From positions 1 through 45,259 of the IMG/VR virus record IMGVR_UViG_3300005563_000011: DNA of 45,259 nt. One strand, 5' to 3'. Below are positions 7,532 to 43,049 of this stretch, one piece after another. The notes under the pieces are model-generated. The model was given only the letters and a program-made list of their open reading frames with translations. It was not told the origin of the DNA and ran no database searches. How positions within the stretch are numbered: position 1 is the stretch's first letter; each line of letters opens with the position of its first letter. This DNA comes from a virus. A program made the translations under genes and the position numbers.

Positions 7532-7549
7532 CAAATCCCACAAGAGGAA
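7532..7549 (+). repeat. 18-bp boundary repeat, copy 1
   Basis: CAAATCCCACAAGAGGAA begins at the base after the helicase TAG stop. It is the first of seven exact copies, all in rightward orientation. Confidence 0.97.
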
Positions 7550-7566
7550 CGGCCGGCGGGCGCGCC

Positions 7567-7595
7567 CATACTCCCATGGCTTTTTTGGGAGTGTG
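7567..7595 (+). promoter_or_regulatory. Hairpin covering the ribosome-binding site of the 51-aa gene
   Basis: CATACTCCCA (7567-7576) can pair with TGGGAGTGTG (7586-7595), a 10-bp stem with one G-U pair and a loop of nine bases that is mostly U. The right arm contains GGGAG, the only good Shine-Dalgarno, 8 bases before the ATG at 7600. The fold would hide the ribosome site. It could instead be a weak terminator for the helicase message, but the U-run is in the loop, not after the stem. Confidence 0.5.
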
Positions 7596-7599
7596 CACC

Positions 7600-7755
7600 A
7601 TGCGAATTGAAGCCAAGCCGCCGACCATCCCGCTGTTCGCCCTGGTGCCCGTCTATATGGGGAATTCGTGGGTGTGGGGCGAGCGCATCGACATGGTGTT
7701 TTCCATGATGATGGGCATTCCCTACGTGAGTTTCCGCCTTCCGCCGGCCGCCTGA
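7600..7755 (+). CDS. Small hydrophobic protein, 51 aa, unknown
   Basis: The ATG at 7600 follows a GGGAG ribosome site. The product (MRIEAKPPTIPLFALVPVYM, then residues including WVWGERIDMVFSMMMGIPYV) is rich in Met, Val, Phe and Trp and may associate with membranes, though no segment is a clear transmembrane helix. It precedes the VRR-NUC gene by one base. A short early gene with a sequestered ribosome site could be a regulated inhibitor or host-takeover peptide, but this is speculation. Confidence 0.55.
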   Translation: MRIEAKPPTIPLFALVPVYMGNSWVWGERIDMVFSMMMGIPYVSFRLPPAA

Positions 7756-7756
7756 C

Positions 7757-8167
7757 GTGCGCGAACACGGCATCCAGAACGCCATCCGCAACGCACTTGC
7801 GGGTGCCGCACTCATTTTCCGCGCGAACACCGGCACCGCCTGGGCCAGCAACCGCGTGGAGAAATTCAGCCGCGGCGGCATGGTGGCCGTCCAGCCCGGC
7901 GACGTGCTGCTGCGCGAGGCGCGGCCCTTCAGCACCGGCCTGCCGCCGGGGTTCAGCGATCTGTTCGGCCTAGTGCCGGTGACGGTCACGCCGGACATGG
8001 TGGGGCGCAAGTTCGCCCGCTTCGTCGCCTTGGAAGTGAAGGCGCCGGACGGCCGCACCAGCGACCTGCAGGCGAAGTTCCTGCGCGCCGTGGCGAACAA
8101 CGGCGGACTGGCGGACGTGGTGCGCTCGCCGGACGACGCGCGGGCGCTGCTGGGGCTGGTGCCGTGA
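7757..8167 (+). CDS. VRR-NUC domain nuclease
   Basis: The GTG at 7757 gives a 136-aa protein with the features of stand-alone phage VRR-NUC endonucleases of the PD-(D/E)XK fold: an N-terminal helix (REHGIQNAIRNALA), a central GFSDLFGLVPVTV strand supplying the first acidic residue, and FVALEVKAPDGR, where E and K are the ExK catalytic pair. The C-terminus has QAKFLRAVANNGGLADVVRS, typical of the family. Such enzymes cut branched DNA and are often encoded next to an SF2 helicase, as here. Its TGA overlaps the next GTG. Confidence 0.88.
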   Translation: MREHGIQNAIRNALAGAALIFRANTGTAWASNRVEKFSRGGMVAVQPGDVLLREARPFSTGLPPGFSDLFGLVPVTVTPDMVGRKFARFVALEVKAPDGRTSDLQAKFLRAVANNGGLADVVRSPDDARALLGLVP

Positions 8168-8484
8168 ACGGCCGCAGCTTCGCCAGCGAGCGCGCGCGCA
8201 TCCTGCGCAGCGGCCGGCCCGCGCGCACCATCCGCAAGGCGCTGGCGCACCTGGCGCGCGAGGCCGGAGCCGCGCCCGTGGTGGTGGACGGCAGGGTGGT
8301 GGCCCACCAGATGCCCAGCGGCGTGATCGTCTGCACGCTGCGGCGCTATCCAACCGAACGCGCGGTGATCCACGAACTGGACGGCGTGCGCGCCTTCGCG
8401 CCGGTGAACGGGGACCGCAAGGTGCCGGTGCGGCATTTTTTCTGCCCGCGGTGCCGCGGCTACCACGTGACCGCCCAGGCGTGA
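8164..8484 (+). CDS. Hypothetical basic protein with C-terminal CPRC knuckle
   Basis: The GTG at 8164 overlaps the preceding stop. The 106-aa protein is basic at the N-terminus (SFASERARILRSGRPARTIR) and ends in FFCPRCRGYHVTAQA, where two Cys and one His could bind a metal. The middle looks beta-rich. No known family is evident; it is translated with the nuclease gene and probably acts on DNA or in replication. Confidence 0.65.
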   Translation: MNGRSFASERARILRSGRPARTIRKALAHLAREAGAAPVVVDGRVVAHQMPSGVIVCTLRRYPTERAVIHELDGVRAFAPVNGDRKVPVRHFFCPRCRGYHVTAQA

Positions 8485-8603
8485 CGGCGGCGCGGTGAAC
8501 CGAGGGAACGATTATCCCCCGTGATTACAAATTACCCCCTTGCGTGTTTACTTTGGAAAATCTACGGCGCAAAACATAGGGCGGGCAACTAAGGGGATTT
8601 ACC
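8485..8603 (+). promoter_or_regulatory. Probable promoter/operator region for the replication genes
   Basis: This 119-bp gap is distinctly AT-rich from about 8510 on. It contains ATTATCC (8511-8517) and ATTACCC (8531-8537), each followed by extra C residues, and between them an imperfect palindrome GTGATTACAAATTAC (8521-8535). The same half-site occurs upstream of the helicase. A TTGCGT-like -35 at about 8540 and an AT-rich stretch after it are consistent with a promoter, but the -10 is not certain. AAGGGG at 8591-8596 is the ribosome site for the GTG at 8604. Confidence 0.5.
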
Positions 8604-8789: not shown

Positions 8790-11125
8790 CCGCAGCCGCC
8801 CGCCACGATGACCTGACGATTGAAACCATCGAGTCGGCCTTGTTCGCAATCGACGCGGACTGTTCCCGCGAGAAGTGGGCGCGCATCGGCATGGCCCTGA
8901 AGTCCGAACTGGGCGAGGGCGGCTTTGCGCTGTTCGATGCGTGGAGCAAGAGCGCGACACGCGGCTATGACGCCAAGGAATGCGCTTCCACCTGGAAGTC
9001 CATCCGCGACGGCGGCGGCGTCAACATCGGCACGCTGATCTGGGAAGCGCAGCAACGCGGCTGGCAATTCGACACCGACCGGCAGACGCTGGACGCGGAC
9101 GCCATCGAAGCCCGCCGCCGCGAGCGCGAGGCCGAACGCAAGGACGCCGAAGCCGCCACGCGCCAGCGCCAGGGCGAGGCCGCCAAGCTGGCGAACCTGA
9201 CCTGGGAGGCATCGGCGCCCGCCGGCGACGGCCACCCGTACCTGCAGGACAAGGGCGTGCGCGCCCACGGCCTGGGCGTCGGCCAGTGGCCGCTGGTGAA
9301 CGATGCTGGCGAAGTGTTCCGCCATCTGCCCGACGCGCTGCTGATCCCGATTGCGGACGCGCGCAACGGCAAGGTGATCAGCCTGCAGGGCATCCTGCTG
9401 GACGCGGACGGCGGCATTCAGAAACGCTACCTGAAGAACGGCCGCAAGCGCGGCGGCTTCCACATGATCGGCACGCCACCGGCCGCCGGCGCACCGCTGG
9501 CGTTCTGCGAAGGGTACGCCACCGGCGCCACCATCCACGAGCTGACCGGCTGGTGCGTCATCGTCACGTTCGACGCGCCGAACCTGCCGGTGGTGGCCGA
9601 GGCTATGCGCGAGCAATTCCCGCAGGCCGCGTTCATCATCGCCGCGGACAATGACGCCTGGACCACCAGGCCGGACGGCTCGCCGTACAATCCCGGCCTG
9701 GACTATGCCCAGCGCGCCGCCGACGCAACGCGCGGGTTCCTGCTGGCGCCGCGGTTCGCGGACACCGCCGGCGAGCCGACCGACTGGAACGACCTGGCCA
9801 AGCTGGAAGGCGAGGCCGCTTGCCGCGCGCAGCTGCTGGCCAACCCGGTGACCGGCGGCAAGCCCGACACCAGCGCGGCCGATCTGCCGGCGACGAAGCC
9901 CGCGAACGACAACGTGGACTATTTCACGCCGCTGCCGGACGTGGGCGGCAAGGGCAAGCCGCTGGCGACCATTGAAAACCTGGCCGAGATAATCGACCGG
10001 CTGGGCGTGACGGTGCGTTACAACATGATCGCCAAGGACACCGAAATCCTGATCCCCGGCGAACAGTACCTGGACGACACGAAGCGCGGCGCTGCCCTCG
10101 CGCGGATCAAGTCGCAATGCATCCGGTTCGGCATGCCGGTGGAGCCGCTGGGCGAATACCTGCTGTATCTGTCTGACCAGCGGCCGTTCAACCCGGTGGC
10201 GCAGTGGATCACGGCGCGCCCGTGGGATGGCACGTCCCGGTTCCAGGCGCTGATGGACACGGTGCAGACGCGGCCCGACTTTGACCGCACGCTGTTTGCG
10301 CTGCTGCTGCGCCGCTGGCTGATTTCGGCCGTGGCCGCCGCCTGCCAGCCGCGCGGGTTCTGGTCCAAGGGCGTGCTGGTGTTCCAGGGCGAGCAGTCCG
10401 AAGGCAAGACCACGTGGTTTCGCCACCTGGTGCCCGAAGACCTGCGCGAACTGATCAAAGTGGACGCCATGGTGGACCCGGCGAACAAGGACAGCGTGAT
10501 TTCCGCCGTGTCGCACTGGCTGGTGGAAATCGGGGAACTGGACGGCACGCTGCGCAAAGCCGACATCGCGCGCCTGAAGGGTTTTATTTCGCAGGACGTT
10601 GACCTGTTCCGCCGGCCCTATGCGCGCACGGAAGAGAAATTCCAGCGCCGCACGGTGTTCTTCGCGTCCGTCAATCCCGAACAGTTCCTGGCCGACGACA
10701 CCGGGAACGTGCGCTGGTGGACGATCCCGGTCACCGGCCTGGTGCTGGAACACGGCATCGATATGCAGCAGCTGTGGGCCGAAGTCTTCACCTGGTACGA
10801 GGCCGGCGAAAAGTGGTGGCTGGACCGCGCCGAGGAACAGCGGCTGGAAGCCCGCAACGCGGATCACGCGCAGGCCGATCCGGTGGAAGAAATGATCCTG
10901 TCCCGCTGGGGCAACTGGGTGGACTACCACCTGCGCAAGCAGATGACCGCCACCCAGGTGCTGCTGGCCATCGGCTACGACAAGCCGACGCGGCCCCAGC
11001 AGACCAGCGCCGCGGCTGCGCTTACCAAGCTGTTCGGCAAGCCGAAGCGGACGGGTTCCGGCCGGTACTATGACGTGCCGGACCCGCCGACCGACAACCA
11101 CGTGGACGATGACCGTCCGTTTTGA
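8786..11125 (+). CDS. Replication protein: PriCT-2, Toprim-like and VapE/DUF927-type helicase domains
   Basis: I start at the GTG at 8786 (VTAAARHDDLTIETIE), which overlaps the previous stop; an upstream ATG in this frame lies inside the HTH gene. The 779-aa protein has a PriCT-2 domain (about 14-90, with WARIGMALKSELGEGGFALF), a Toprim-like region (about 200-345, with AFCEGYATGA near 237 and AADNDAW near 285), and a VapE/virulence-associated E superfamily 3-like ATPase at 430-760 with Walker A FQGEQSEGKTTWF (about 532-544). It would prime and unwind DNA at the phage origin. Its size and order match phage primase-helicases. Confidence 0.88.
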   Translation: MTAAARHDDLTIETIESALFAIDADCSREKWARIGMALKSELGEGGFALFDAWSKSATRGYDAKECASTWKSIRDGGGVNIGTLIWEAQQRGWQFDTDRQTLDADAIEARRREREAERKDAEAATRQRQGEAAKLANLTWEASAPAGDGHPYLQDKGVRAHGLGVGQWPLVNDAGEVFRHLPDALLIPIADARNGKVISLQGILLDADGGIQKRYLKNGRKRGGFHMIGTPPAAGAPLAFCEGYATGATIHELTGWCVIVTFDAPNLPVVAEAMREQFPQAAFIIAADNDAWTTRPDGSPYNPGLDYAQRAADATRGFLLAPRFADTAGEPTDWNDLAKLEGEAACRAQLLANPVTGGKPDTSAADLPATKPANDNVDYFTPLPDVGGKGKPLATIENLAEIIDRLGVTVRYNMIAKDTEILIPGEQYLDDTKRGAALARIKSQCIRFGMPVEPLGEYLLYLSDQRPFNPVAQWITARPWDGTSRFQALMDTVQTRPDFDRTLFALLLRRWLISAVAAACQPRGFWSKGVLVFQGEQSEGKTTWFRHLVPEDLRELIKVDAMVDPANKDSVISAVSHWLVEIGELDGTLRKADIARLKGFISQDVDLFRRPYARTEEKFQRRTVFFASVNPEQFLADDTGNVRWWTIPVTGLVLEHGIDMQQLWAEVFTWYEAGEKWWLDRAEEQRLEARNADHAQADPVEEMILSRWGNWVDYHLRKQMTATQVLLAIGYDKPTRPQQTSAAAALTKLFGKPKRTGSGRYYDVPDPPTDNHVDDDRPF

Positions 11126-12336: not shown

Positions 12337-12375
12337 TTGCGATGGCCGTTGCTATTCAATGTGACGGGGGCGAAC

Positions 12376-12828
12376 GTGACATTACCTGACAGCGTACAAG
12401 AGATAGCGGACGTGATCGGCCGTGATGCGGCGCTATACCTGATCGGCCAGCTGCCCACGTGCATTTCGGGCATCGACGGCGCGAAGTCATACGGGCGCGA
12501 GGGTTCCACCAGCAAGCGGTCCACCCGCGTCATCCTGTATGTGCCGAAGCGGCTGACGCCCGACCACCGGCTGGTTGAAATCCTGGGCTGGGATCGCGCC
12601 CGCAAGCTAGCCGACTGGTTCGGCGGTTCGATCCTGCAGCCGGCGAACTGCAACGCGATTTACAAGCGGTTTCGTGATGGCGAAATCAAGCGCCGGCTGA
12701 AGGAAGGCGCGAGCAACGGGCAGCTGGCATCGGTGTTCGGCATGTCGCGCGAGTCCATCCGATTGCTGCGAATGCAAATCCCACAAGAGGAACTGAAGGG
12801 CGCGAACGACAACACTGCGCAGGACTAG
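12376..12828 (+). CDS. Mor/C-like transcription activator of late genes
   Basis: The GTG at 12376 has GGGGGC 5-6 bases upstream and is preferred over earlier in-frame starts. The 150-aa product matches the Mor/C activator family of Mu-like phages: an N-terminal helical dimerisation part (LPDSVQEIADVIGRDAALYL), a beta strand ending in TRVILYVPKR, the second strand region WFGGSILQP, and a C-terminal HTH (NGQLASVFGMSRESIRLLR). These proteins activate middle or late promoters and act as dimers. It sits directly before holin and lysozyme, as a late activator should. The C-terminal tail contains repeat copy 2 translated as QIPQEE. Confidence 0.82.
   Translation: MTLPDSVQEIADVIGRDAALYLIGQLPTCISGIDGAKSYGREGSTSKRSTRVILYVPKRLTPDHRLVEILGWDRARKLADWFGGSILQPANCNAIYKRFRDGEIKRRLKEGASNGQLASVFGMSRESIRLLRMQIPQEELKGANDNTAQD
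12775..12792 (+). repeat. 18-bp boundary repeat, copy 2 (inside the activator gene)
   Basis: The exact 18-mer lies in the last codons of the Mor-like gene, read as Gln-Ile-Pro-Gln-Glu-Glu, after the HTH and 36 bp before the stop. The lysis cassette begins 58 bp downstream. Confidence 0.97.
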
Positions 12829-16912: not shown

Positions 16913-18957
16913 CCGCCCACGCATTCACCAACCCCGCCGCCGTGCTATCCGCGCTGCGCCGGGCCGCCGCGCACCTGGTGCCGCCGCCGGACATGCTGCC
17001 CAGCGTCTGGGCGGAACAGAACATCCGCATTCCGGTGGGCAACGCGATCCCTGGCCCGATCAACTTCGACAACGCGCCCTATCAGCGCGGCATGATTGAC
17101 GTGGTGAAGGAACCGGGCATCCACCAGGTGGACTACATGACGGGCGCCCAGCTGGGGAAGACCACGTGCCAGCAGTGCATCGTCGGATTTTTCATCGCGC
17201 ACGAACCCTGCAGCCAGATTTTCGCCCAGCCCAGCCAGGGCGACATGCAGACGTTCATCGAAACGAAGCTGCAGCCGATGATTGACGCGAACCCGTCGAT
17301 TGCGCGGAAGATGGCGAAGGCGCGCGGGCGCGAGGGCGTGAATAACAGCCGGATCAAGTCCTACATCGGCGGCTGGCTCATGATGTCGTGGGCCGGTTCA
17401 CCGAAGACCGCGCGCGGCCGATCCGCGCCGAAGACGCACGCCGACGAAGTGGACGGCATGGTGGCCACGGCGGAAGGCGATTTCGTCAACCTGCTGGACC
17501 AGCGCGCGGCATCGTTCGGGGACCAGCGCCTGCAGACGCGCAGCAGCACGCCGACCATCAAGGGCGTGTCCAGGATCGAAGCCGGGTTCCTGGCGGGCGA
17601 TCAGCGGCGCTATTTCGTGCCGTGTCCCGATTGCGGGCACGAACAGTTCCTGAAATGGGAGCAAATCCACTGGAATGGGCGCAAATCGACCGGATTTGAG
17701 GACGCGGACCTGGATTTGCACGATGAACACGAGCCGGAAACGGCGGTTTATGCGTGCGAGGAATGCGGCAGCTGCTGGGACGATGGCACGCGCATTGCGG
17801 CGATCCGCGGTGCCGAGGCGGCCGGCGCCGGGTGGCGCGCGACCGCGAAGCCGAAAACGGCCGACCACGCCAGCTTCCACGCGCCGGAATTCCTGTCCAC
17901 ATTCCGCCGCCTGCGCGACATCGTAACCAGCTACCTGAACAAGCTGCGCATCGGTGACCTGCAATCGTTCGTGAACGTGTCGGCCGCCGAGACTTTCGAG
18001 GAACGGGGCGAGCAAGCCGACCCTGACAGCCTGCTGGCGCGCGCCCAGGCGTCCACCTACACCAGCGGCACCGTGCCCGCCGGCGGCCTGGTGCTGACCG
18101 CGGGCGTGGACATGCAGCCCGACCGCCTGGAAGTCGAAGTGGTGGCCTGGGGCGAGGGCGAACAATCCTGGCAGGTGGACTATCAAGTGCTGTGGGGCGA
18201 TCCCGACGCGCCGGACGTGTGGGAGGAACTGGAAGAACTGCTGTCCGGCACCTGGGAGCATGAAAGCGGCGCCCGCATGCCGCTGCTGGCCACGTGCGTG
18301 GACACCGGCGGCACCGGCGGCAACACCCAGTCCGCCTATGACTGGCTGCGCGGGAAAACCGGCCGCCGCATCTTCGCGGTGAAGGGCAGCGGCAAGTGGG
18401 GCGACCCGATTGTGCGCGCGCCCTTGCGCAAGCAGTCGGGCAAGACGGCGCGCAAGGTGGACCTGTTCCTGGTGTGCGCCGACGAAGCCAAGCTGACCGT
18501 GATGCGCCGCCTAGCCGTCCAGAAACCCGGCCCTGGCTACTGCAATTTCCCGCGCGACCGCGAAGGCGAATATTTCCAGCAGCTGACCGCCGAAAAGCTG
18601 GTGACCAGGTACGTTAAGGGCTTCCCGGTGCGCGAGTGGCACAAGATGCGCCCGCGCAATGAGGCGCTGGACTGCCGGCAGTACGCCCTGGCGGCGCTGA
18701 AGATCGCCAACCCGAGCATGCGGCGCGCTGCCCAGCGCCTAGGTGATGCCGTTCGGCCTTCCGAACCGGCGGTGGCGCAGACGGGGGGTGACGCGCCGAG
18801 TCCAGAAAGCACGAAGCCCGCGCCGGTTCCCGTGCTGCCGCAAATCCCACAAGAGGAACCGCAGCCCGCACCCGCGCAAGGTGGCCGCGTAGTGAAGACC
18901 AGGCGCGTGCTGCGATCCCCGAAGGTGAAAGGCGGCGGCTGGGCGACCAGATATTAA
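16909..18957 (+). CDS. terL: Terminase large subunit (lambda GpA family)
   Basis: The 682-aa protein is a GpA-type terminase. The ATPase domain shows a divergent Walker A, TGAQLGKTT (about 78-86), and a Walker B-like HADEVDGM (about 174-181). A zinc-binding insert has CPDCGHEQFLKW and CEECGSCW. The nuclease domain begins near residue 395 with TAGVDMQPDRLEVEVVAWG. It cuts and packages phage DNA into proheads. The C-terminal 70 residues are disordered, Pro-rich and carry repeat copy 3 as QIPQEE, then a basic end. Length fits the family (about 640-690). Confidence 0.95.
   Translation: MTAHAFTNPAAVLSALRRAAAHLVPPPDMLPSVWAEQNIRIPVGNAIPGPINFDNAPYQRGMIDVVKEPGIHQVDYMTGAQLGKTTCQQCIVGFFIAHEPCSQIFAQPSQGDMQTFIETKLQPMIDANPSIARKMAKARGREGVNNSRIKSYIGGWLMMSWAGSPKTARGRSAPKTHADEVDGMVATAEGDFVNLLDQRAASFGDQRLQTRSSTPTIKGVSRIEAGFLAGDQRRYFVPCPDCGHEQFLKWEQIHWNGRKSTGFEDADLDLHDEHEPETAVYACEECGSCWDDGTRIAAIRGAEAAGAGWRATAKPKTADHASFHAPEFLSTFRRLRDIVTSYLNKLRIGDLQSFVNVSAAETFEERGEQADPDSLLARAQASTYTSGTVPAGGLVLTAGVDMQPDRLEVEVVAWGEGEQSWQVDYQVLWGDPDAPDVWEELEELLSGTWEHESGARMPLLATCVDTGGTGGNTQSAYDWLRGKTGRRIFAVKGSGKWGDPIVRAPLRKQSGKTARKVDLFLVCADEAKLTVMRRLAVQKPGPGYCNFPRDREGEYFQQLTAEKLVTRYVKGFPVREWHKMRPRNEALDCRQYALAALKIANPSMRRAAQRLGDAVRPSEPAVAQTGGDAPSPESTKPAPVPVLPQIPQEEPQPAPAQGGRVVKTRRVLRSPKVKGGGWATRY
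18841..18858 (+). repeat. 18-bp boundary repeat, copy 3 (inside terL)
   Basis: The exact 18-mer encodes QIPQEE in the disordered C-terminal tail of the terminase, 99 bp before the stop and upstream of the head genes. Confidence 0.97.
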
Positions 18958-18969: not shown

Positions 18970-19515
18970 TTGACGTATTGCTGCACATCGTTCCCCACGG
19001 AAGTCACGGCGGGCCTGTCGTTCAAGGCGGCCGTGGCGGTTTCCGTCTATCCGGCGCCAGCGTGGACCGCCACGCTGCACATGCGTGGGCCGTCGCAAAT
19101 CGATTTGACGGCCGCGCCGGATGGAACGGGGCACCTTTTCAGCGCGGACGCCGCCGCCACCGCCGACTGGGCGCCCGGCACCTACTGGTGGGCCATCCGC
19201 GCCACGAACGGCACGGACGTGGCGGAAATCGAGACGGGCAACCTGCTGGTGGTGGCCGACCTGGCCGCCGTGTCCGCGCCCTATGACGGCCGCAGCGATA
19301 ACGAAAAGGCGCTGGCGTCCATCGACGCGGTGCTGGCCCGCCGGGCGACCATCGACCAGTCCCGGTATGTGATCAACAACCGCGAACTGTGGCGCACGCC
19401 GATCCCTGAACTGATCAAGCTGCGCGCGTTCTACGCCGCCGCTGTCGCGCGCGAGAAGCGCAAGGCCAGCGGGACGCGCCGCTGGGGCCGCCCCGTTCGC
19501 GTGGAGTTTTCCTAA
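18970..19515 (+). CDS. Head-tail connector-like protein between terminase and portal
   Basis: A TTG at 18970, 13 bp after terL, is the only reasonable start; the frame is closed upstream by the terL stop. The first 100 residues form a beta-rich domain (LSFKAAVAVSVYPAPAWTAT and GTYWWAIRATNG). The last 60 (LASIDAVLARRATIDQSRYV, then NRELWRTPIPELIKLRAFYA) resemble the gpW-like helical element found between terminase and portal in lambda-like phages. A gpW-type connector that seals the portal after packaging is likely, here fused to an extra N-terminal domain. Confidence 0.7.
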   Translation: MTYCCTSFPTEVTAGLSFKAAVAVSVYPAPAWTATLHMRGPSQIDLTAAPDGTGHLFSADAAATADWAPGTYWWAIRATNGTDVAEIETGNLLVVADLAAVSAPYDGRSDNEKALASIDAVLARRATIDQSRYVINNRELWRTPIPELIKLRAFYAAAVAREKRKASGTRRWGRPVRVEFS

Positions 19516-21068
19516 TGCGCCTGAAGTTCTGGGGGCGCAGCGCGCCGGTGCCGGCGAATGACAACGCGACGCCGCCGGCCGCCGCCGGCCGCCGCCGCTC
19601 ATTCATGGCTGGCGCTGTCGCCGGGCTGTTCAAGGCCGCCGCGCAGGGCAACGACAAGTTGCCCACTATCCCGATCCCGCCGGATCAGCTGATTACGCTG
19701 AACCACATGGCGCTGGTGGCCCGTTCTCGCCAGCAGTGGCAGGACAACGATTATTCGCGCGCGTTCATCCGGCTGATCCGCCAGAACGTGGTTGGCCCCA
19801 AGGGCGTGACCATGCAGGCGAAGGTGGAAACCGCCCGCGGCAAGCTGGACAAGGACACAAACGCCGCCTTGGAAGCGGACTGGGAAGACTGGGGCCGCAA
19901 GGGCAACTGCGATGTAACCGGCACCATGTCCTGGCGGCAGGTGCAGTGCCTCGCCGTCGAGACGGCCGCGCGCGACGGCGAATTCATCGTGCGCAAGGTC
20001 TATGGCGATGCCGCCGGGCCGCACGGCTTTGCGCTGCAGTTCATTGATCCGCAGCGCCTGCCCGTCTGGTACAACGTGGACCGCCTGGTGGGCGGTTCGT
20101 TCATCCGCCACGGCATCGAATTCAACGGCTGGGGCCGGCCGACCGCGTACCACTTCACCAGCACGGACACGGACGCACTGGGCTACTACAGCAGCGACGG
20201 GCGCGGGTTCGTGCGCGTGCCGGCCGATGAAGTGATACACGAATTCATCGTGGAAATGGTGGGCCAGCGCCGCGGCCTGCCGTGGTCCACCACGTCGCTG
20301 TTCCGCCTGCGCAACGTGAACGGGTTTGAAGACGCGGCAATTCAGAACGCGCGTGCTTCGGCGTCAAAAATGGGCTTCATCGAATACGCGGACGGGTTCG
20401 GCCCCGAGGCGGACGACGAACCCGTGACCATCGACGCGGAACCGCTGTCGTTCCACGAACTGCCCGAGGGCGCGAAAATCGCGGAATGGTCGCCGCAGTT
20501 CCCGACGAACGAAACGGCATCCTTCTTGAAGTCGCAGCTGCGCGGCGCCGCGTCCGGCATGGGCGTGCCGTACAATGAACTGGCGAACGACCTGGAAGGC
20601 GTGAATTTCAGCAGCATCCGCCAGCTGACCCTGGACGCGCGCGAGCATTACAAGGAAATCCAGGAGTGGCTGATTGAAGCCCTCGCGCAGCCGGTGCGTG
20701 ACGCGCACCTGGCCTGGCGCCTGCTGAACAGCGCGGTGAAGGTCAAAAACCGGCCGATCCCCGCCGACCGTCTGGCCGCCTGCCGCAAGGTGAACTGGCA
20801 GCCGCGGCGCTGGCAGTGGATCGACCCGCGCGCGGACGTGGACGGCGCGCTGTCGTCCATGCGCGGCGGCCTGTCCGACCCGAGCGACATCATCCGCGAA
20901 CAGGGCCGCGATCCCGACGCCGTGTTCCAGGGCATCGCGCACACCCTGGAAAGCATGAAGGCCGCTGGCATCCCCGAGGATTTCATCAAGCTGTTCATGC
21001 AGGGGCAGCCGGTGCAGCCGCCGAAGGAACCGAAGCCCGCGAAGGACAATGCCAACGATGACGCCTGA
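19515..21068 (+). CDS. Portal protein (lambda gpB family)
   Basis: The ATG at 19515 overlaps the preceding TAA. The 517-aa protein matches lambda B-type portals: an N-terminal basic segment, then NHMALVARSRQQWQDNDYSR and AFIRLIRQNVVGPKGVTMQA, a central domain with MSWRQVQCLAVETAARDGEF, and the helix region SQLRGAASGMGVPYNELAND. It forms the dodecameric DNA channel and head-tail vertex. The C-terminus is Pro/Lys-rich (PVQPPKEPKPAKDNANDDA), and the next gene starts within it. Confidence 0.94.
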   Translation: MRLKFWGRSAPVPANDNATPPAAAGRRRSFMAGAVAGLFKAAAQGNDKLPTIPIPPDQLITLNHMALVARSRQQWQDNDYSRAFIRLIRQNVVGPKGVTMQAKVETARGKLDKDTNAALEADWEDWGRKGNCDVTGTMSWRQVQCLAVETAARDGEFIVRKVYGDAAGPHGFALQFIDPQRLPVWYNVDRLVGGSFIRHGIEFNGWGRPTAYHFTSTDTDALGYYSSDGRGFVRVPADEVIHEFIVEMVGQRRGLPWSTTSLFRLRNVNGFEDAAIQNARASASKMGFIEYADGFGPEADDEPVTIDAEPLSFHELPEGAKIAEWSPQFPTNETASFLKSQLRGAASGMGVPYNELANDLEGVNFSSIRQLTLDAREHYKEIQEWLIEALAQPVRDAHLAWRLLNSAVKVKNRPIPADRLAACRKVNWQPRRWQWIDPRADVDGALSSMRGGLSDPSDIIREQGRDPDAVFQGIAHTLESMKAAGIPEDFIKLFMQGQPVQPPKEPKPAKDNANDDA

Positions 21069-23040
21069 AGAACTGGCCAAGCGCCTGAAGGAAATTGCCG
21101 AGCGCGGCGCGCTGCGGCGCGTGGCCACCGTGGTGCGCGGCGCGGTGGACGTGGAAGCGCGCACCGTGGAACTGGCGTTCAGCAGCGAGACGGACAGCGT
21201 GGAGCGCTGGTTCGGCATCGAAGTGCTGGGCCATGACGCCGGCGAAGTGGACCTGTCGCGCCTGAACAACGGCGCCCCGGTGCTGTGGATGCACGACTGG
21301 GCCGACCAGCGCGGCGTGGTTGAAAGCGTGCGCGTGGACGGCGACCGCGTGGGCCGCGCGGTGGTCCGGTTCAGCCGCTCGCCGGTGGGCGATCAGCTGT
21401 TCCAGGACATCGCGGACGGCATCGTGACCAAGGTTTCGGTGGGCTACAGCGTCCAAGGCATGCGCCTGGTGGAAGAACGCGACGGCGTGGACGTGTACCG
21501 CATCACGGCGTGGACGCCCTACGAAATCAGCATGGTTTCGGTGCCTGCGGACGACACCGTGGGCGTGGGGCGCGCGCTCCAAATCCCACAAGAGGAAACG
21601 CCGGGCGTTCCGGCCGATGAAGAACGGGCAAACGACCATTTGCCCGAAGCACAAGCGAGGACTGCTAACACTATGGAAAAAATCGTTCGCGATGCCCAGG
21701 GCAACCTGGTCCGCGCCAAGGTGAATGAGGACGGCAGCATTGCCGAGGTCATCGCCATTGTTGAGGAAGCCGGCGCGGACGTTCGCGCTGCCACCGCCCG
21801 CGGTGCCGAAGGCGAGCGCGCCCGCGTTCGCGCCCTTCAGCAGATGGGCAACGACTATGACGCCGCCCAGCTTGCGGGCGAGTTCATCCGCGACGGCAAG
21901 AGCGCGGACGAACTGCGCCAGGCGATCCTGGCGGACGTGATGTCCAAGCGCGCCAAGTCCGGCCAGCCCCTGACCGAAGGCGGCGCGTCCGATCAGATCG
22001 GCATGACCGACAAGGACGTGCGCAACTATTCGCTGCTGCGCGCCGTCCGCGCCCTCGCGAACCCCGGCGATGCTGGTATCCAGCGCGCCGCCGCGTTCGA
22101 AATCGAGTGTTCGGCCGCTGCCGCCAAGCAGTACGGCAAGGAAGCCCGCGGCATCATCATCCCGGCCGATGTTCTGGGTTCGCGCGCGTTCAACGCGGGC
22201 GGCGTCCCGAGCGGCAACCAGTCGGGCGCCAACCTCGTCGCGAACACGCTGCTGGCCGGTTCGTTCATCGATGCCCTGCGCAACCGCACCACGATCATGC
22301 AGCTGGGCAACGTCATGGGCGGCCTGGTTGGCAACGTGGACATTCCCAAGCAGACCGGCGTTTCGTCGGCCTACTGGGTGGGCGAAGGCGACGACGCCAC
22401 CGAAACCAGCCCGAGCCTGGGCCAGATCAGCCTGAACCCGAAGACCGTTGCGGCCTTCACGGACATCACGCGCCGCCTGGCCATGCAGTCCACGCCGGAC
22501 GCCGAAGCCCTGGTGGTCCGCGACCTTCGCGCCGCGATGTCGCAGGCTATCGATTATGCTGGGTACTACGGCACCGGCACCGACAATCAGCCACTGGGCC
22601 TGAAGAATTATTCGGGCATCAACGCGGTTGACTTCGCCGCCGCCGGGCAGCCGACCTTCCCGGAACTGGTCCAGATGGAAACCGAGATTGCGGCCGACAA
22701 CGCCGATCTGGGCGCCATGGGCTATGTGGGCAATTCCCGCTTCCGCGGCCACTGCAAGACGGCTCTCAAGTTCGCGTCGGCCGGTTCTGCCACCATCTGG
22801 GAGCAGGGCAACACCATTAACGGCTACCGCACCGAGATCACCAACCAGCTGGCCAACGACAACGTGTTCTTCGGCAACTTCGCGGACCTGATCGTTGCCC
22901 TCTGGGGCGGCCTGGACCTGACCGTGGACCCGTACTCGCTTTCGAAGTCGGGCGGCCTGCGCATCGTCGTGTTCCAGGACGTGGATTTCGTCCTGCGCCG
23001 CGTCGAAAGCATCTGCTTCGGCAGCAGCACGGTTTCGTAA
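21049..23040 (+). CDS. Fused prohead protease and HK97-type major capsid protein
   Basis: The ATG at 21049 (or 21058) lies inside the portal gene's end. Residues 1-175 are an HK97-type serine protease: GAPVLWMHDWADQRGVVESV (His) and DGIVTKVSVGYSVQGM (Ser). Then a disordered linker with repeat copy 4 (QIPQEE) leads to a second part starting at Met209 (MEKIVRDAQGNLVRA), a delta-like helical region and the capsid fold (residues about 350-663; VGEGDDATETSPSLGQISLN, and the C-terminal DVDFVLRRVES). One 663-aa polyprotein would build and mature the head; cleavage should fall in the linker or at the end of the delta region. Internal initiation at 21673 is possible but lacks a strong ribosome site. 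Confidence 0.93.
   Translation: MPTMTPEELAKRLKEIAERGALRRVATVVRGAVDVEARTVELAFSSETDSVERWFGIEVLGHDAGEVDLSRLNNGAPVLWMHDWADQRGVVESVRVDGDRVGRAVVRFSRSPVGDQLFQDIADGIVTKVSVGYSVQGMRLVEERDGVDVYRITAWTPYEISMVSVPADDTVGVGRALQIPQEETPGVPADEERANDHLPEAQARTANTMEKIVRDAQGNLVRAKVNEDGSIAEVIAIVEEAGADVRAATARGAEGERARVRALQQMGNDYDAAQLAGEFIRDGKSADELRQAILADVMSKRAKSGQPLTEGGASDQIGMTDKDVRNYSLLRAVRALANPGDAGIQRAAAFEIECSAAAAKQYGKEARGIIIPADVLGSRAFNAGGVPSGNQSGANLVANTLLAGSFIDALRNRTTIMQLGNVMGGLVGNVDIPKQTGVSSAYWVGEGDDATETSPSLGQISLNPKTVAAFTDITRRLAMQSTPDAEALVVRDLRAAMSQAIDYAGYYGTGTDNQPLGLKNYSGINAVDFAAAGQPTFPELVQMETEIAADNADLGAMGYVGNSRFRGHCKTALKFASAGSATIWEQGNTINGYRTEITNQLANDNVFFGNFADLIVALWGGLDLTVDPYSLSKSGGLRIVVFQDVDFVLRRVESICFGSSTVS
21580..21597 (+). 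repeat. 18-bp boundary repeat, copy 4 (protease-capsid linker)
   Basis: The exact 18-mer encodes QIPQEE in the linker between protease and capsid, 76 bp before the Met codon that begins the capsid part. Confidence 0.97.
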
Positions 23041-24673: not shown

Positions 24674-25219
24674 ATGGACCGCAACACCGAAGTGACGCTG
24701 GACCAGCTGTATTCGGGCATCGTGGCCGCGATCAGCGCGAAGTTCCCCGACTTGCACGTGGAGGCCGAGCGCGAAGACCGCGACATGAAGCGGCTGCCGG
24801 TGCCGTGCTGCCTGGTGGACCTGATCGAAATGCCGGACGCGAACGACCACGACCCCGGCACCGGACAGCAGGCGGTGAACGCCACGTTTTCCGCGCAGCT
24901 GATCGTCGGGTTTCGCCAGGACGCCGGCAAGAACGCGCGCAAGGAAGTGCGCAAGCTGGCCGCCGCGCTCGCCGCGATGGTGCGCCTGAACCGCTGGGGC
25001 TGCCCTGTCGGCCCGGCCTACGTGCATGGCGCCTATCCCGACGATTTCGACCCCGATCTGGACCAGTTCGAATGCTGGCGCGTGGACTGGGAACAAGTGG
25101 TGCACCTGGGCGAAACGGTGTGGACGAACGACGGCGTGCAGCCCACCGTGGTGCTGCTGGGCGAAGCGCCAATGGTGGGCGCCGACTTCGCGCCCGATTA
25201 CGTGCAGGTGGTGCCGTGA
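24674..25219 (+). CDS. Tail terminator-like protein
   Basis: This 181-aa protein lies between Z and V. It begins MDRNTEVTLDQLYSGIVAAI and has a helical N-terminus, a central beta sheet (VNATFSAQLIVGFRQDAGKN) and ALAAMVRLNRWGCPVGPAYV, similar in layout to tail-completion or terminator proteins that cap the tail tube. The GTG of gene V overlaps its TGA. No strong motif; function is assigned by order. Confidence 0.6.
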   Translation: MDRNTEVTLDQLYSGIVAAISAKFPDLHVEAEREDRDMKRLPVPCCLVDLIEMPDANDHDPGTGQQAVNATFSAQLIVGFRQDAGKNARKEVRKLAAALAAMVRLNRWGCPVGPAYVHGAYPDDFDPDLDQFECWRVDWEQVVHLGETVWTNDGVQPTVVLLGEAPMVGADFAPDYVQVVP

Positions 25220-25854
25220 CCGACCGCTGGGCGCAAGCCGAGGCCGAGCGGGTGCAGGGCAACCTGATCCGCGTCGGCCGCGTGACAGAAGTGGACGCGG
25301 CCAACGGGCTGGCCAAGCTGACCGTGGGCGGCCTTGAAACCGACTGGCTGCCCTGGGGCGTCCACCGCGCCGGCGGCACGCGCACGGCGTCGGCGCCGAC
25401 CGTGGGCGAACAGCGCCTGCTGTTTTCGCCCTATGGCGACATGGCGCAGGGCGTCATCGGGCAGGCGATCTATCAGGATGACCACCCGACGCCGGCGACC
25501 ACCGGCGACCAGGAAGTGACCGTGTACCCCGATGGCACGCGGGTGGAGTATGACGCCGCGGCGAACAAGCTGCAGATCGACGTGGCCGGCAACGCGCTGG
25601 TGGTGATCAATTGCAAGCAGGCGACGGTGAAGGCCGACACCAGCGTGACGCTGGACACGCCCGAAACGATCTGCACGGGGAACCTGACCGTGGCCAAGAG
25701 CCTGACCACCGGCGCCGGCGGCGGCAGCGCCACGATCAACGGCGCGGTACATTTCGTCGGGCCGTCCGTGCAGCACAACAGCAAGAGCATTGGCGACACG
25801 CACACCCACACCGGGGTGCAGACGGGCGGCGGAACCACGGGCGCGCCGACCTAA
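25216..25854 (+). CDS. V: Baseplate spike protein (P2 gpV-like)
   Basis: The GTG at 25216 overlaps the preceding stop. The 212-aa protein has an OB-like N-domain (LIRVGRVTEVDAANGLAKLT) with WLPWGVHRAGGTRTASAPTV, typical of gpV, then a beta-helical stem rich in V, T and N (GNALVVINCKQATVKADTSV). The tip ends in GDTHTHTGVQTGG, where the HxH residues bind the iron ion of gpV-type needles. As a trimer it pierces the host outer membrane when the sheath contracts. Confidence 0.93.
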   Translation: MTDRWAQAEAERVQGNLIRVGRVTEVDAANGLAKLTVGGLETDWLPWGVHRAGGTRTASAPTVGEQRLLFSPYGDMAQGVIGQAIYQDDHPTPATTGDQEVTVYPDGTRVEYDAAANKLQIDVAGNALVVINCKQATVKADTSVTLDTPETICTGNLTVAKSLTTGAGGGSATINGAVHFVGPSVQHNSKSIGDTHTHTGVQTGGGTTGAPT

Positions 25855-25857: not shown

Positions 25858-25875
25858 CAAATCCCACAAGAGGAA
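25858..25875 (+). repeat. 18-bp boundary repeat, copy 5
   Basis: The exact 18-mer begins 3 bp after the gpV stop, between spike and baseplate wedge genes. A short inverted repeat (ACGG-CGG-CCGT) follows it. Confidence 0.97.
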
Positions 25876-25905
25876 GAACGGCGGCCGTAGGGCCATCGTC
25901 GGCGC

Positions 25906-33162: not shown

Positions 33163-33180
33163 CAAATCCCACAAGAGGAA
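33163..33180 (+). repeat. 18-bp boundary repeat, copy 6
   Basis: The exact 18-mer lies 7 bp after the fibre stop and directly abuts a perfect hairpin (33181-33204). The sheath gene starts 64 bp later. Confidence 0.97.
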
Positions 33181-33204
33181 ACCTTGCCCCACCGTGGGCA
33201 AGGT
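33181..33204 (+). terminator. Stem-loop abutting repeat copy 6
   Basis: ACCTTGCCC (33181-33189) pairs with GGGCAAGGT (33196-33204) around a 6-base loop. No U-tract follows. It may attenuate fibre transcription or define a processed end before the highly expressed sheath and tube genes. Confidence 0.55.
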
Positions 33205-33244: not shown

Positions 33245-34759
33245 ATGCCCGAAACCTTCCTGCATGGCGTCGAGGTTCTGGAAATCGACACCGGGCCGCG
33301 CCCGATCCAGACGGTTCGTTCGTCCGTTATCGGCCTGATCGGCACCGCGCCCGACGCGCAGCCCGAAGTCAAGGCGACCCTCGCCACCGGCGTGGTGGGC
33401 TCGAACAACGCCCAGACCTGGACCAGCAAGCTGACCGGCGTTGCCGGCAACAACATCGCCCTGCGCCTGGTGGACCCGAAGGCCAACAACGCCGCGCTGG
33501 CCGTGACCGTTTCGGGCACCGTCATCACCGCGAGCCTGGCTACCGGCAACACCGGCACCATCACCACCACCGCCACCCAGCTGGCGACCGCGATTGCCGC
33601 GAACGCCGCCGCGAACGCGCTGGTGGGCGTGGCGAACACCGGCGCCAGCACCGGCGCGGGCGCGGTGGCCGCGCTGGCCACCGCGTACCTGTCGGGCGGC
33701 GTGGACGAAGCGTTCCCGCTGAACACGCCGGTGCTTATCGCCGGCAGCCGAGTGCAGGCCGCCAAGCTGGGCGCCGCCGGCACCCTGGCCGACGCCGTGG
33801 GCAGCATTTTTGACCAGGCCGGCGCGGTCATCGTTGTGGTGCGCGTGGACGAAGGCGCGGACGACGCCGAAACCATGGCCAACGTCATCGGCGGCGTGAA
33901 CAGCGGCACCGGCAATTACGAGGGCGTGCATGCCTTCCTTGGCGCCGAAAGCCGCGTGGGCGTCGTCCCGCGCGTCCTGATCGCGCCGGGCTTCACGCAC
34001 CAGCGCGACACCACCGCCAACGCCGTGGTGGCCGAACTGGTGGGCATCGCTGACCGCCTGCGCGGTGTGATCATCGCGGACGGCCCGAACACCACGGACG
34101 CCGCCGCGATCCAGTACGCCAACGACTTCGGCAGCGCCCGCGTGTTCCTGGTGGACCCCTGGGTGCTGAAGATGGACGCCACCGGCCAGGTTGTCCAGGC
34201 GCCGCCCAGCCCGTGCGTGGCCGGCCTGATCGCCCGTTCGGATAACGACCGCGGGTTCTGGTGGTCCCCGTCAAACCAGGCGATCAACGGCATCGTCGGC
34301 ACCGTCCGGCCGGTGGACTTCACCCTGGGCGATGCGAACGCGCGCGCCAACCTGCTGAACGAAGCGGGCGTGGCGACGATCATCCACCAGGATGGCTATC
34401 GCCTCTGGGGCAACCGCTCGCTGTCGAGCGATCCCAAGTGGGCGTTCCTGTCGGTTCGCCGCACGGCCGACATCATCCAGGACAGCCTGCTGCGCGCCCA
34501 CCTGTGGGCCGTGGATCGCAACATCACGAAGACCTACGTGGAGGACGTGACCGAGGGCGTGCGCGACTACCTGCGCCACCTGACGAAGATCGAGGCCATC
34601 CTAGGCGGTGACTGCTGGGCCAGCCCGGACCTGAACACGCCGGACCAGATCGCGCAGGGCAAAGTCTATTTCGATTTCGATTTCTCGCCGCCCTATCCGG
34701 CCGAACACATCACGTTCCGCAGCCAGCTGAACAACGACTATATCGCGGAGATTTTCTAA
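33245..34759 (+). CDS. FI: Tail sheath protein (P2 FI-like)
   Basis: The 504-aa protein begins MPETFLHGVEVLEIDTGPRP and IQTVRSSVIGLIGTAPDAQP, the family signature of contractile tail sheaths. An extra domain of Ala/Thr/Gly-rich beta strands (about 45-160) is inserted after the first strand, longer than in P2 FI. The C-terminal domain with GFWWSPSNQAINGIVGTVR and RANLLNEAGVATIIHQDGYR, then LWGNRSLSSDPKW, is highly typical. It forms the contractile sheath around the tube encoded next. Confidence 0.96.
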   Translation: MPETFLHGVEVLEIDTGPRPIQTVRSSVIGLIGTAPDAQPEVKATLATGVVGSNNAQTWTSKLTGVAGNNIALRLVDPKANNAALAVTVSGTVITASLATGNTGTITTTATQLATAIAANAAANALVGVANTGASTGAGAVAALATAYLSGGVDEAFPLNTPVLIAGSRVQAAKLGAAGTLADAVGSIFDQAGAVIVVVRVDEGADDAETMANVIGGVNSGTGNYEGVHAFLGAESRVGVVPRVLIAPGFTHQRDTTANAVVAELVGIADRLRGVIIADGPNTTDAAAIQYANDFGSARVFLVDPWVLKMDATGQVVQAPPSPCVAGLIARSDNDRGFWWSPSNQAINGIVGTVRPVDFTLGDANARANLLNEAGVATIIHQDGYRLWGNRSLSSDPKWAFLSVRRTADIIQDSLLRAHLWAVDRNITKTYVEDVTEGVRDYLRHLTKIEAILGGDCWASPDLNTPDQIAQGKVYFDFDFSPPYPAEHITFRSQLNNDYIAEIF

Positions 34760-40012: not shown

Positions 40013-40022
40013 ACTTGCATTG

Positions 40023-40063: not shown

Positions 40064-40076
40064 GGGGGTTTTGATC

Positions 40077-41018: not shown

Positions 41019-41054
41019 GGTGCGGCGTGGCGCCGCATGATCCGGCGTGATGCA

Positions 41055-41099
41055 AGGCGCTTGGTGCACCCGGAAGGTGCAACCAGGCGCCTTTTCTTT
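41055..41099 (+). terminator. Strong rho-independent terminator after the accessory genes
   Basis: A long stem (AGGCGCTTGGTGCACC, 41055-41070, with GGTGCAACCAGGCGCCT, 41076-41092, one bulge) closes a short loop and is followed by TTTTCTTT. It separates the rightward accessory genes from the integration region. Confidence 0.85.
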
Positions 41100-41133
41100 G
41101 TGGTGCAACCGCCGCTAAGTGGTTGATTTTGCT

Positions 41134-41186
41134 TGGTGCCGGCAGCAGGGATCGAACCCGCGACCCCCTGATTACAAAGCAGGGGA
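41134..41186 (-). other. Candidate attP: 3' part of a tRNA-Thr(TGT) gene
   Basis: On the minus strand the sequence reads like the 3' half of tRNA-Thr: anticodon loop TTTGTAA with stem, GGGGGTC variable region, T-arm GCGGGTTCGATCCCTGC, acceptor TGCCGGC and ACCA. The 5' half of the tRNA (D-arm) is not recognisable; the anticodon stem is followed by unrelated sequence. This is the usual form of attP in phages that integrate into a tRNA gene and rebuild its 3' end. The integrase gene is 600 bp away. GGTGCAACC near-repeats at 41076 and 41102 could be integrase arm sites. Confidence 0.75.
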
Positions 41187-41347
41187 AAACCCTTTACCGC
41201 CAATGCCCCGATTGCTATAAAAGCCGGCGTAAGCGACTGAAACGACTAGCCGAATTAACGGACGTGACCCAGCGTTAGCCGGGGTGGTTCGTATGATGGC
41301 CGGGCGCTAGGTGCTACCACCAGTGCAACCAAGGGGCACCCGGAAGA

Positions 41348-41791
41348 ATGGCCACCAGATCGCGCGCGCTCGCGGCAATAGCAGCAATCACCGCCGACCG
41401 CTTGGAGCGAGAACGGCAGCTGAAGCCGCCCCCTGAAGTCCCGCCGCCCGCACCGCCCGCACCGCGCGCACCGCCCAGTCCCGACACGCCACTGACCGAA
41501 GCCCAGTTGGCGGACATGGCGGTGCCATTCGAAGTCACGTGCGGCGTCTATTTCCTCTTGCGCGGCAGGCGCGTGGTCTATGTCGGCCAGTCCATCAACA
41601 TCCTAGCCAGGATCGCCACGCACGCCGCCAGCGAAGACAAGCGCGGGCGCTGGGATGCCTGGGCCTACGTTCCATGCGAGGCGAGGCGCCTTGACGCCGT
41701 GGAGGGCGAATACATCCGCCGGTTCAGGCCGCCGCTGAACAAGGTGGGCAAGCTATCAGCCAATGACAACCGGAGGGTGCGCGCGTGCTGA
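41348..41791 (+). CDS. GIY-YIG nuclease-domain protein
   Basis: The 147-aa protein has a long Pro/Ala-rich N-terminal linker (PPPEVPPPAPPAPRAPPSP) followed at about residue 66 by GVYFLLRGRRVVYVGQSINI, a GIY-YIG-type core with the catalytic Arg in LARIATHAAS and Glu in VEGEYIRRFRPPLN. The end carries an ANDN string. It lies between attP and integrase and overlaps the integrase start by 7 bp. Free-standing GIY-YIG proteins are often homing or repair nucleases. Whether this one is mobile or part of the integration module is unclear. Confidence 0.8.
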   Translation: MATRSRALAAIAAITADRLERERQLKPPPEVPPPAPPAPRAPPSPDTPLTEAQLADMAVPFEVTCGVYFLLRGRRVVYVGQSINILARIATHAASEDKRGRWDAWAYVPCEARRLDAVEGEYIRRFRPPLNKVGKLSANDNRRVRAC

Positions 41792-43029
41792 CTGATACCG
41801 AAATCAAGAAGGCCATCCGCGAGGCGACTGCCGAACGCGTTCTGAACGACCAGGCGGGCGGACGCGGGGCGGGTAGCCTGCGCCTTCGCATCCGGCCGAG
41901 CGATGAAGGCGTGACCGCCACGTGGTTTGCGTTCTGGAAAACGGGCGGCGTGCGCAGCACCAGGACACTGGGGCGCTATCCCGGCATGACCGCCGCCCAG
42001 GCGCGGGCGGCGTACCATAACGAAATCGTGCCCCAGCTGCTGGCTGGGAAGAACCCCGCTGCACCGAAGGCGCCTTGTGGCCGGCGCGCGACCGTGGGGG
42101 AATTGTTCCGCGCCTACGTGGCCGACCTGAAAACTAAGGGCCGCGCCAGCTGGCCGGAAGTCGAGCGCGCGCTATTGCACGCCAAGGACAACGCCGCCGA
42201 CGCCCTGGGGCGCAACCGGCTTGCTGGCGAGATTGAGGCCGCGGACGTTGCCGGATACCTGGCCAAGTTCTACCGGCGCGGTTCGCGCAGCGCCGCCGAC
42301 CACCAGCGGGCCTATGTGTCCGCGGCGTTCGGCTGGGCGGTCAAGGCGGCGAACGACTACACCGTGGACGACCGCCAGGACTGGGGCATGAAGTTCAACC
42401 CGGCCGCCCTGGTGCGGCGAGATTACGAAGCAGTCCAAGCGCGCGACCGCAACCTGTCGGCCGACGAACTGCGCGTGCTGTGGCACGCCGCGGCGCCGGG
42501 CGAAAACGGGTTCACGCTGGAAACGGCCGCGGCGATCCGGCTGCTGATCGGCACCGGCCAGCGCGTGCAGGAAGTGCTGCGGCTGGACGGCGCCGAACTG
42601 GACCTGGCCGCCGCGCTGTGGCGCATGCCGCGCGAGAAAACGAAACTACGCCTGCGCCCGCACGTGGTGCCGCTGCCGCGCCAGGTGCTGCCGGTCCTGG
42701 CCGACCTGGCGGCTGCACACGGCACCGGGCCGCTGTTCCCCGGCCGCGCCGGGCGCGAGCGCATGGACCACCGCAGCGTCAAGCAGGCGATTGACCGCTG
42801 GCTGGCGCTGCCGGGCGTGACGGCCGCGCAGTTCCAGACGCGCGATCTGCGACGCACCTGGAAGTCCCGCACGGGCGAAATCGGCATTGGCCGCGACATG
42901 CGCGACTTGATCCAGCAGCACGCCGGGCAGGACGCCGGCACCGTCCACTATGACCGGGCCGACTACCTGCCGCAGATGCGCGCGGCCATGGCGAAGTGGG
43001 AAGCCTGGCTGGACGGCGTGCTGGCCTAG
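41785..43029 (+). CDS. int: Tyrosine-family integrase
   Basis: The GTG at 41785 starts a 414-aa P4/lambda-type integrase: an N-terminal arm-binding domain (SLRLRIRPSDEGVTATWFAF), a core-binding SAM-like domain (about 103-200) and the catalytic domain. Catalytic residues are R260 (GTGQRVQEVL), R356 (TRDLRRTW), H379 (LIQQHAGQ) and Y389 (TVHYDRADY). At the usual HxxR position the His is replaced by Arg353. It recombines attP with a tRNA gene. The stop is followed after 2 bp by repeat copy 7. Confidence 0.93.
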   Translation: MLTDTEIKKAIREATAERVLNDQAGGRGAGSLRLRIRPSDEGVTATWFAFWKTGGVRSTRTLGRYPGMTAAQARAAYHNEIVPQLLAGKNPAAPKAPCGRRATVGELFRAYVADLKTKGRASWPEVERALLHAKDNAADALGRNRLAGEIEAADVAGYLAKFYRRGSRSAADHQRAYVSAAFGWAVKAANDYTVDDRQDWGMKFNPAALVRRDYEAVQARDRNLSADELRVLWHAAAPGENGFTLETAAAIRLLIGTGQRVQEVLRLDGAELDLAAALWRMPREKTKLRLRPHVVPLPRQVLPVLADLAAAHGTGPLFPGRAGRERMDHRSVKQAIDRWLALPGVTAAQFQTRDLRRTWKSRTGEIGIGRDMRDLIQQHAGQDAGTVHYDRADYLPQMRAAMAKWEAWLDGVLA

Positions 43030-43031
43030 GG

Positions 43032-43049
43032 CAAATCCCACAAGAGGAA
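43032..43049 (+). repeat. 18-bp boundary repeat, copy 7
   Basis: The exact 18-mer begins 2 bp after the integrase stop. The next gene, the start of a foreign-looking cassette, begins 55 bp later. Confidence 0.97.

Follow-up and report, generated by a model that had tools for sequence, protein, structure and literature searches.

Why should a phage genome carry the same 18 base pairs (bp) at seven separate places, always pointing the same way? The question is raised by the IMG/VR virus record IMGVR_UViG_3300005563_000011, all 45,259 bases of which (66.9% GC) are called the window here. Its repeated element, CAAATCCCACAAGAGGAA, is present in seven exact copies on the + strand (Table 1); a scan of the whole window detects no copy with one to three mismatches and none on the - strand. 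The chance expectation for the 18-mer is 0.02, and seven copies were reached in none of 100 shuffles. A first, sequence-only reading of this DNA had judged the copies too many for chance, and counts, strand, positions and expectation all agree with it: the repeats are a real, functional-looking feature. We propose that they are very probably the operators of late promoters, bound by the phage's own Mor/C-like activator.

The element is conserved as DNA. Four copies lie just past stop codons, with gaps of 0 bp (helicase, ending at 7531), 3 bp (gpV, 25854), 7 bp (fibre, 33155) and 2 bp (integrase, 43029), as the sequence-only reading had stated. It was equally right that the three translated copies are all read as QIPQEE, the distances from gene start to copy (12775-12337, 18841-16909 and 21580-21049) each being a multiple of three. 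Selection on the peptide (xxPxEE, in one frame at the three coding sites) was considered and is ruled out, since the noncoding copies are identical to the coding ones. The 18-mer is AT-rich relative to its setting, with 44% GC against 66.9% for the genome. It cannot be extended: the adjoining bases vary among the seven copies, and the flanks show no obvious likeness by eye. Outside the window the exact 18-mer was found in three IMG/VR contigs, once in each, in a scan that may omit close records of the window. These contigs give no tblastn match to ten window proteins, and the three occurrences therefore look like chance.

In PHROGs comparisons the window groups with phages whose contractile tail is of the P2 type, whose protease and capsid are fused in one protein and which have a Mor-like late activator. 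Ten named relatives were picked by protein search and used as whole genomes: Persinger, Mano, Mica, PPpW-3, ep3, Arya, MQ-4, KA2-1, Alexa and FoX1. (A contig scan with terL and a viral-contig scan with the activator found no relatives.) Five core places were compared, namely the end of the activator gene, the end of terL, the protease/capsid linker, the gap between gpV and gpW, and the region upstream of the sheath gene. When repeated words were listed for each genome, without the window as reference, a direct-repeat family emerged at the core places in eight of the ten relatives (not in KA2-1 or Alexa). In 10 of the 11 genomes, among them the window and KA2-1, a search of the five regions found one 16-mer at all five places, the mismatches summing to between 0 and 5; in Alexa it is present at three of the five only. 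In ep3, MQ-4, Arya and KA2-1 almost every mismatch belongs to the site at the end of the activator gene. This site is clear in seven of the ten relatives, weak in Arya (5 of 16 bases mismatched) and KA2-1 (3 of 16), and not found in Alexa.

The relatives' own versions are 16-19 bp long, for example GGAAATCCCACAAGAG in Persinger, GGAAATCCCACGGGAG in Mica, GGCAAACCCACAAGAG in PPpW-3, GACAAACCCCAAGAAG in ep3 and GGAAATTCCGGACATG in FoX1. Copies are alike inside each phage and unlike across phages. Scans of all 11 genomes with their own 19-base consensus, allowing up to four mismatches, reveal no copy on the opposite strand. They did not pick up the site in the activator gene of Arya or KA2-1 and returned two additional but weak + strand matches (in MQ-4 and KA2-1), both without a -10 hexamer; nor did they show any counterpart in the ten relatives to the window copies at 7532 and 43032. 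The sequence-only reading had suggested a search of related phages for the 18-mer, with its absence to be counted against a boundary function. The 18-mer itself is indeed lacking there, but diverged counterparts occupy matching positions; its absence, taken as refutation, would have misled.

What suggests a promoter is the sequence that follows the motif. Over the 11 phages 53 core sites were counted and scored, at offsets of 0-59 nucleotides (nt), for a hexamer whose second base is A and whose sixth is T. Such a hexamer lies exactly 18 nt past the motif at 49 of the 53 sites, and at no other offset does it occur at more than nine. The four exceptions are the gpW sites of ep3, Arya and KA2-1, with the hexamer at 19, and the capsid site of the window. 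Apart from its first base, the hexamer is similar to TATAAT; those of Alexa are TATAAT, CATAAT and TAAAAT. In each of Persinger, Mano, Mica, PPpW-3, FoX1 and MQ-4 the -10 fits at all five sites, the five flanks within a phage being those of unrelated genes. It is because the hexamer stands at a fixed 18 nt that the repeats are read as late-promoter operators. With the transcription start taken about 7 nt past the -10, the motif is predicted to span roughly -49 to -31, and the layout, as judged from the DNA, is that of an activator-dependent sigma70 promoter. The activator, the phrog_836 protein, would bind the repeat there, in the -35 position, and would let the host sigma70 RNA polymerase use the hexamer downstream. 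The lysis, head, capsid, baseplate and sheath/tail units would each begin at one of five core promoters, and the window phage has two further copies. The earlier claim that the sites mark borders between functional modules holds insofar as these borders would be the starts of late transcription units.

The fixed hexamer and the pattern of divergence bear on two other explanations. The sequence-only reading had entertained a recombination joint for module exchange, in keeping with the location of the copies at module borders. This idea is unsupported, because the copies agree within each phage and differ among relatives, the opposite of what exchange between phages would need; joints would mismatch between phages, and the downstream -10 would be left unexplained. 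We regard such joints as very unlikely. The same reading had also suggested a regulator or antiterminator site on the nascent RNA. The regulator site is retained, but as a DNA operator within a promoter. An RNA-level element, whether a processing site, an antiterminator or a small-RNA target, would suit copies that are unidirectional and inside transcribed late units; it is hard to reconcile with the fixed -10 or with a gpW start codon at the predicted transcription start, which would leave the motif outside that RNA, and we give it very little credence. No sign of an RNA target or a packaging mark turned up, though no dedicated search was made for either.

The candidate binding protein is present in all 11 phages. 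Its family, phrog_836, matches Mor (1.2e-10) and C (2.1e-11) of phage Mu, and Pfam Mor (PF08765) is reached by 3 of the 11 members, at best with 7.5e-8. In the records of eight of the ten relatives (not MQ-4 or Alexa) the protein is labelled "late transcriptional activator". Distances between motifs were compared with distances between proteins for 22 genes present in at least 8 of the 11 phages; the activator tail was excluded, and dksA, HTHrep, lysozyme and gpV, found in fewer than eight genomes, were dropped. The activator ranks first of the 22 (r = 0.755), ahead of terL (0.656) and a RecA-like protein (0.591), with the sheath at 0.220.

The comparison was extended by a survey of 50 records, many of them fragments. 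The sheath set supplied 44 of these, selected by length, and the capsid set three; the remaining three were the chance-hit records. The phrog_836 protein occurs in 24 of the 44 sheath-set records, two with an internal stop, and in none of the other six. Partial Mantel tests drew on 26 further activator records, with ten left out for an unclear motif and L019 dropped for want of a sheath match; motifs were aligned by eye, some were completed from their flanks, and the two smaller subsets were chosen by hand. For the helix-turn-helix (HTH) domain given the sheath, r was 0.485, 0.486 and 0.566 over 26, 22 and 16 genomes (p = 0.0002 each); for the sheath given the HTH domain, no test over the same genomes was significant. 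Common descent is only partly removed by these tests.

One of the three core sites inside genes lies in the linker between protease and capsid. In all 11 phages an in-frame ATG follows 27-57 nt past the -10 of this site, and in ten (not FoX1) it has a Shine-Dalgarno (SD)-like sequence. A control that slid along the protease-capsid genes found an ATG at such a distance at 21.5% of positions and an ATG with an SD-like sequence at 1.5%, by an SD-like pattern defined after the sequences were viewed. The ATG of the window, codon 209, falls between the protease and capsid profile matches, the match to capsid family phrog_10 covering residues 223-659. We predict that a promoter within the protease-capsid gene yields a protease-free capsid chain.

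At the gpV/gpW site the start codon lies very near the -10. The gpW ATG is 6 or 7 nt past the -10 in all ten phages that have the site, with the -10 offset set by hand to 19 in ep3 and Arya and to 20 in KA2-1. A count free of that choice covered 52 nonredundant loci, distant phages included: at 37 the distance from the end of an A2/T6 hexamer to gpW is 6 or 7 nt, against a median of 2 over 60 distances. SD-like sequences accompany gpW at 4 of 52 loci, compared with 43 of 60 for the sheath and 32 of 35 for the tube. On these grounds the gpW mRNA is predicted to be leaderless. In Mano, Persinger and PPpW-3 (L035, L034 and L037) the gpW start as annotated is upstream of the predicted transcription start, and a conserved ATG a few codons downstream would be the likelier start in these phages.

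In 9 of the 11 phages (not in the window or FoX1) the sheath copy is closely preceded by a terminator-like T run, recognized by eye, with only a few bases between the two, so that a new transcription unit seems to start at the sheath. In the window, the stretch 33181-33204, spacer plus -10 of the predicted sheath promoter, forms an inverted repeat, ACCTTGCCC-caccgt-GGGCAAGGT; with the upstream T run missing in this genome, it may serve instead of a terminator in read-through RNA. A sheath protein search of IMG/VR matched 473 stretches, of which 80 loci were kept. Upstream repeats were then sought at 81 loci, which include the window, L017 and L127 and in which near-duplicates were kept. Exact same-strand repeats of at least 17 nt precede the sheath at 21 loci, as against 1 in each of two controls (inside the gene and on the opposite strand). 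Relative to the sheath start, 18 of these 21 repeats are located between -71 and -88 and three between -47 and -49. Most resemble the family motif; that of L057 does not.

Several observations weigh against the operator interpretation or its parts. The 53 core sites are homologous across related phages and so not independent, and only 2 of them have T at the first position of the hexamer. The -10s of the window are weak: offset 18 fits four of its five core copies and neither of the extra copies, one of which fits at 17. The annotated sheath start of Mica lies upstream of the predicted transcription start, and at the looser threshold of at least 13 nt the sheath is preceded by a repeat at 31 of 81 loci, with 16 of 81 in either control; the excess is clear only from 17 nt upward. 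Control genes peak as gpW does (gpJ at 21 nt in 20 of 31, the tube at 45 nt in 14 of 35), and the 52 gpW loci, too, are homologous and not independent. We take the control peaks for conserved coding sequence; because they occur, the missing SD sequence and the tie to the operator weigh as much as the gpW peak itself. As to the protein, the activator of the window is under the Pfam Mor cut-off (E = 0.061), single-sequence hhalign comparisons with Mu Mor and C were not significant, and an AlphaFold model of moderate confidence (pLDDT 70.7) has no significant match in the PDB. Among the 11 phages MQ-4 has a member of the Ogr family (7.9e-21). The motif shows no dyad symmetry, the best of the axes from 6.0 to 15.5 in the 19-base motif pairing a fraction of 0.386 of positions as a mean of 27 motifs. 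Since terL and other genes also track the motif, shared descent explains part of the correlation. The N-terminal domain of the activator does about as well as the HTH domain, and better in two of three subsets, so that the covariation points to the protein and not to particular contact residues.

Some of these points would also fit late-promoter operators bound by a different phage or host protein. The correlations of terL and the RecA-like protein and the absence of a detected dyad leave room for such a binder, and the correlation did not include four genes, possible regulators in two cases, that were found in too few genomes. The first rank of the activator among 22 genes, its presence in every phage and its label in most of the relatives' records point the other way, and we consider another binder unlikely. 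A partition function was weighed as well, since a ParB-like gene is annotated in eight of the ten relatives (not in the Alexa and MQ-4 tables; MQ-4 matches by tblastn), and the repeats might be its parS sites. The ParB proteins of six relatives give no match in the window and one 43-residue piece (E = 0.022) in Alexa, both of which have the repeats; moreover, no dyad was found and the orientation is always that of late transcription. Partition sites are most improbable.

An operator read by the phrog_836 activator is best viewed as Mor/C-type activation in a new form. In the middle promoter Pm of Mu, a Mor dimer binds at -51 to -36 and replaces the -35 element (PMC4390567). The likeness would lie in a phage activator site in the -35 place, a recognizable -10, the use of sigma70 and a distantly homologous activator; the difference is that Mu has a 16-bp dyad (PMC4390567), whereas the present motif is 19 bp long, lacks a dyad and is near-identical at five to seven places. 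If a dimer binds it, the binding mode would differ from that of Mor, because no dyad was found. The Mu late promoters Plys, PI, PP and Pmom, which use C, likewise serve several late units from activator sites near -35; the sites and architecture vary in Mu (PMC4461284), while site and spacing are almost constant here, and three of the five core sites are inside genes. In Mu, too, the endolysin gene follows the activator gene.

The late promoters of P2 use Ogr, whose sites have the form TGT-N12-ACA. P2 is similar in having multiple late units for the same type of tail, one of which starts before the sheath gene FI; it differs in its regulator, an Ogr/Delta zinc finger being absent from the window and nine of the ten relatives. 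No Ogr was detected in the 50 further records. In MQ-4 (L042) an Ogr/Delta-type zinc-finger gene at 25118-25258 is found alongside the phrog_836 activator. Near-identity of copies within a phage and divergence between phages also recall T7-type promoters, from which the sigma-type -10 at fixed spacing sets the present sites apart; no single-subunit phage RNA polymerase was seen among the 40 window open reading frames (ORFs), a part of the total, given to PHROGs. The feature tables of the ten relatives annotate no promoter. Among the papers that literature searches listed, no title or abstract opening describes these repeats or the late promoters of the group, the papers on ep3, ECO1230-10 and PPpW-3 being only partly covered, and the word "promoter" is missing from the main texts, as far as available, of PMC11990801, PMC10892653, PMC5754474 and PMC5539073, which describe members.

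Table 1. Features of the window, with predicted and putative assignments; "kept" gives the number of phages, out of the window and ten relatives, in which the place is conserved
Feature	Position	Strand	Remarks
Putative operator, copy 1	7532..7549	+	After helicase gene; extra site, no counterpart in scan of ten relatives
-10-like CATACT	7567..7572	+	17 nt (not 18) after copy 1
Mor/C-like late transcriptional activator, predicted to bind the repeats	12337..12828	+	phrog_836, E = 1.3e-24
Putative operator, copy 2	12775..12792	+	In tail codons of activator gene; precedes lysis genes (holin, endolysin)
-10-like AACACT	12811..12816	+	18 nt after copy 2
Putative operator, copy 3	18841..18858	+	In terL tail; precedes head-tail joining and portal genes; kept 11/11
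-10-like CAAGGT	18877..18882	+	18 nt after copy 3
Putative operator, copy 4	21580..21597	+	Protease/capsid linker; kept 11/11
-10 position, GATGAA	21616..21621	+	After copy 4; poor, no T at position 6
Predicted protease-free capsid product	21673..23040	+	In-frame ATG, codon 209; GAGGA upstream
Putative operator, copy 5	25858..25875	+	Between gpV and gpW; kept 10/11, not found in Alexa
-10-like CATCGT	25894..25899	+	18 nt after copy 5; gpW ATG at 25906, 6 nt further
Putative operator, copy 6	33163..33180	+	Precedes tail sheath gene; kept 11/11
-10-like CAAGGT	33199..33204	+	18 nt after copy 6; sheath ATG at 33245
Putative operator, copy 7	43032..43049	+	After integrase; extra site, no counterpart in scan of ten relatives; -10 position TAAGCC poor
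Gene with ANDN	4651..5517	-	
Gene with ANDN	8891..11125	+	
Gene with ANDN	19515..21068	+	
Gene with ANDN	21049..23040	+	
Gene with ANDN	41348..41791	+	

Both extra copies of the window, here putative operators, are followed by ORFs. Copy 1 is followed by a 51-codon ORF (ATG at 7600, the end of a longer listed frame) and a resolvase-like gene at 7757. Between the copy and this ORF lies a hairpin (7570-7592, ACTCCC...GGGAGT, with a T run in the loop), which could cover the ribosome-binding sequence of the ORF. Copy 7 is followed by a short series of + strand ORFs (43105-43476, 43480-43671, 43671-45008 and one from 45008 onward). The last reaches the end of the window and would span the join if the molecule were circular. 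Bases 1-24 and 45236-45259 are identical. Given this terminal direct repeat of 24 bases, the record probably represents a circular molecule or a complete map with circular permutation.

A separate observation concerns the tetrapeptide ANDN, the commonest over distinct proteins of the 11 phages. It occurs in 55 genes, which lie on both strands, as against 1.36 expected from composition; the genes of related phages are counted apart, with two to eight genes per phage. It is often found in linkers or tails of unrelated proteins, such as primase, helicase, exonuclease, terL, SSB and the activator. Among more distant phages there is hardly any enrichment: 5 genes across 80 loci, with 3.09 expected.

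Taken more broadly, and with slightly more belief than doubt, the repeats would reveal a large undescribed group of P2-tailed phages in which asymmetric, near-identical operators control late gene expression through a co-evolving Mor/C homologue, so that each phage has a private switch; a buried promoter in the protease-capsid gene would make extra protease-free capsid chains, and gpW would be translated from a leaderless mRNA. The private, co-drifting operator sets, the promoter within the capsid gene and the leaderless gpW would be the features to surprise specialists. Jilinvirus, Foxunavirus and their relatives have been little studied, and the map offers a testable scheme of late transcription in this group. 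If it is true, a late activator and at least five dispersed operators can drift together, and the group would hold many candidate orthogonal activator/promoter pairs. A fused protease-capsid gene would be able to give extra capsid, gpW would provide a conserved example of a leaderless phage mRNA, and the gpW start would be corrected in the annotations of Mano, Persinger and PPpW-3.

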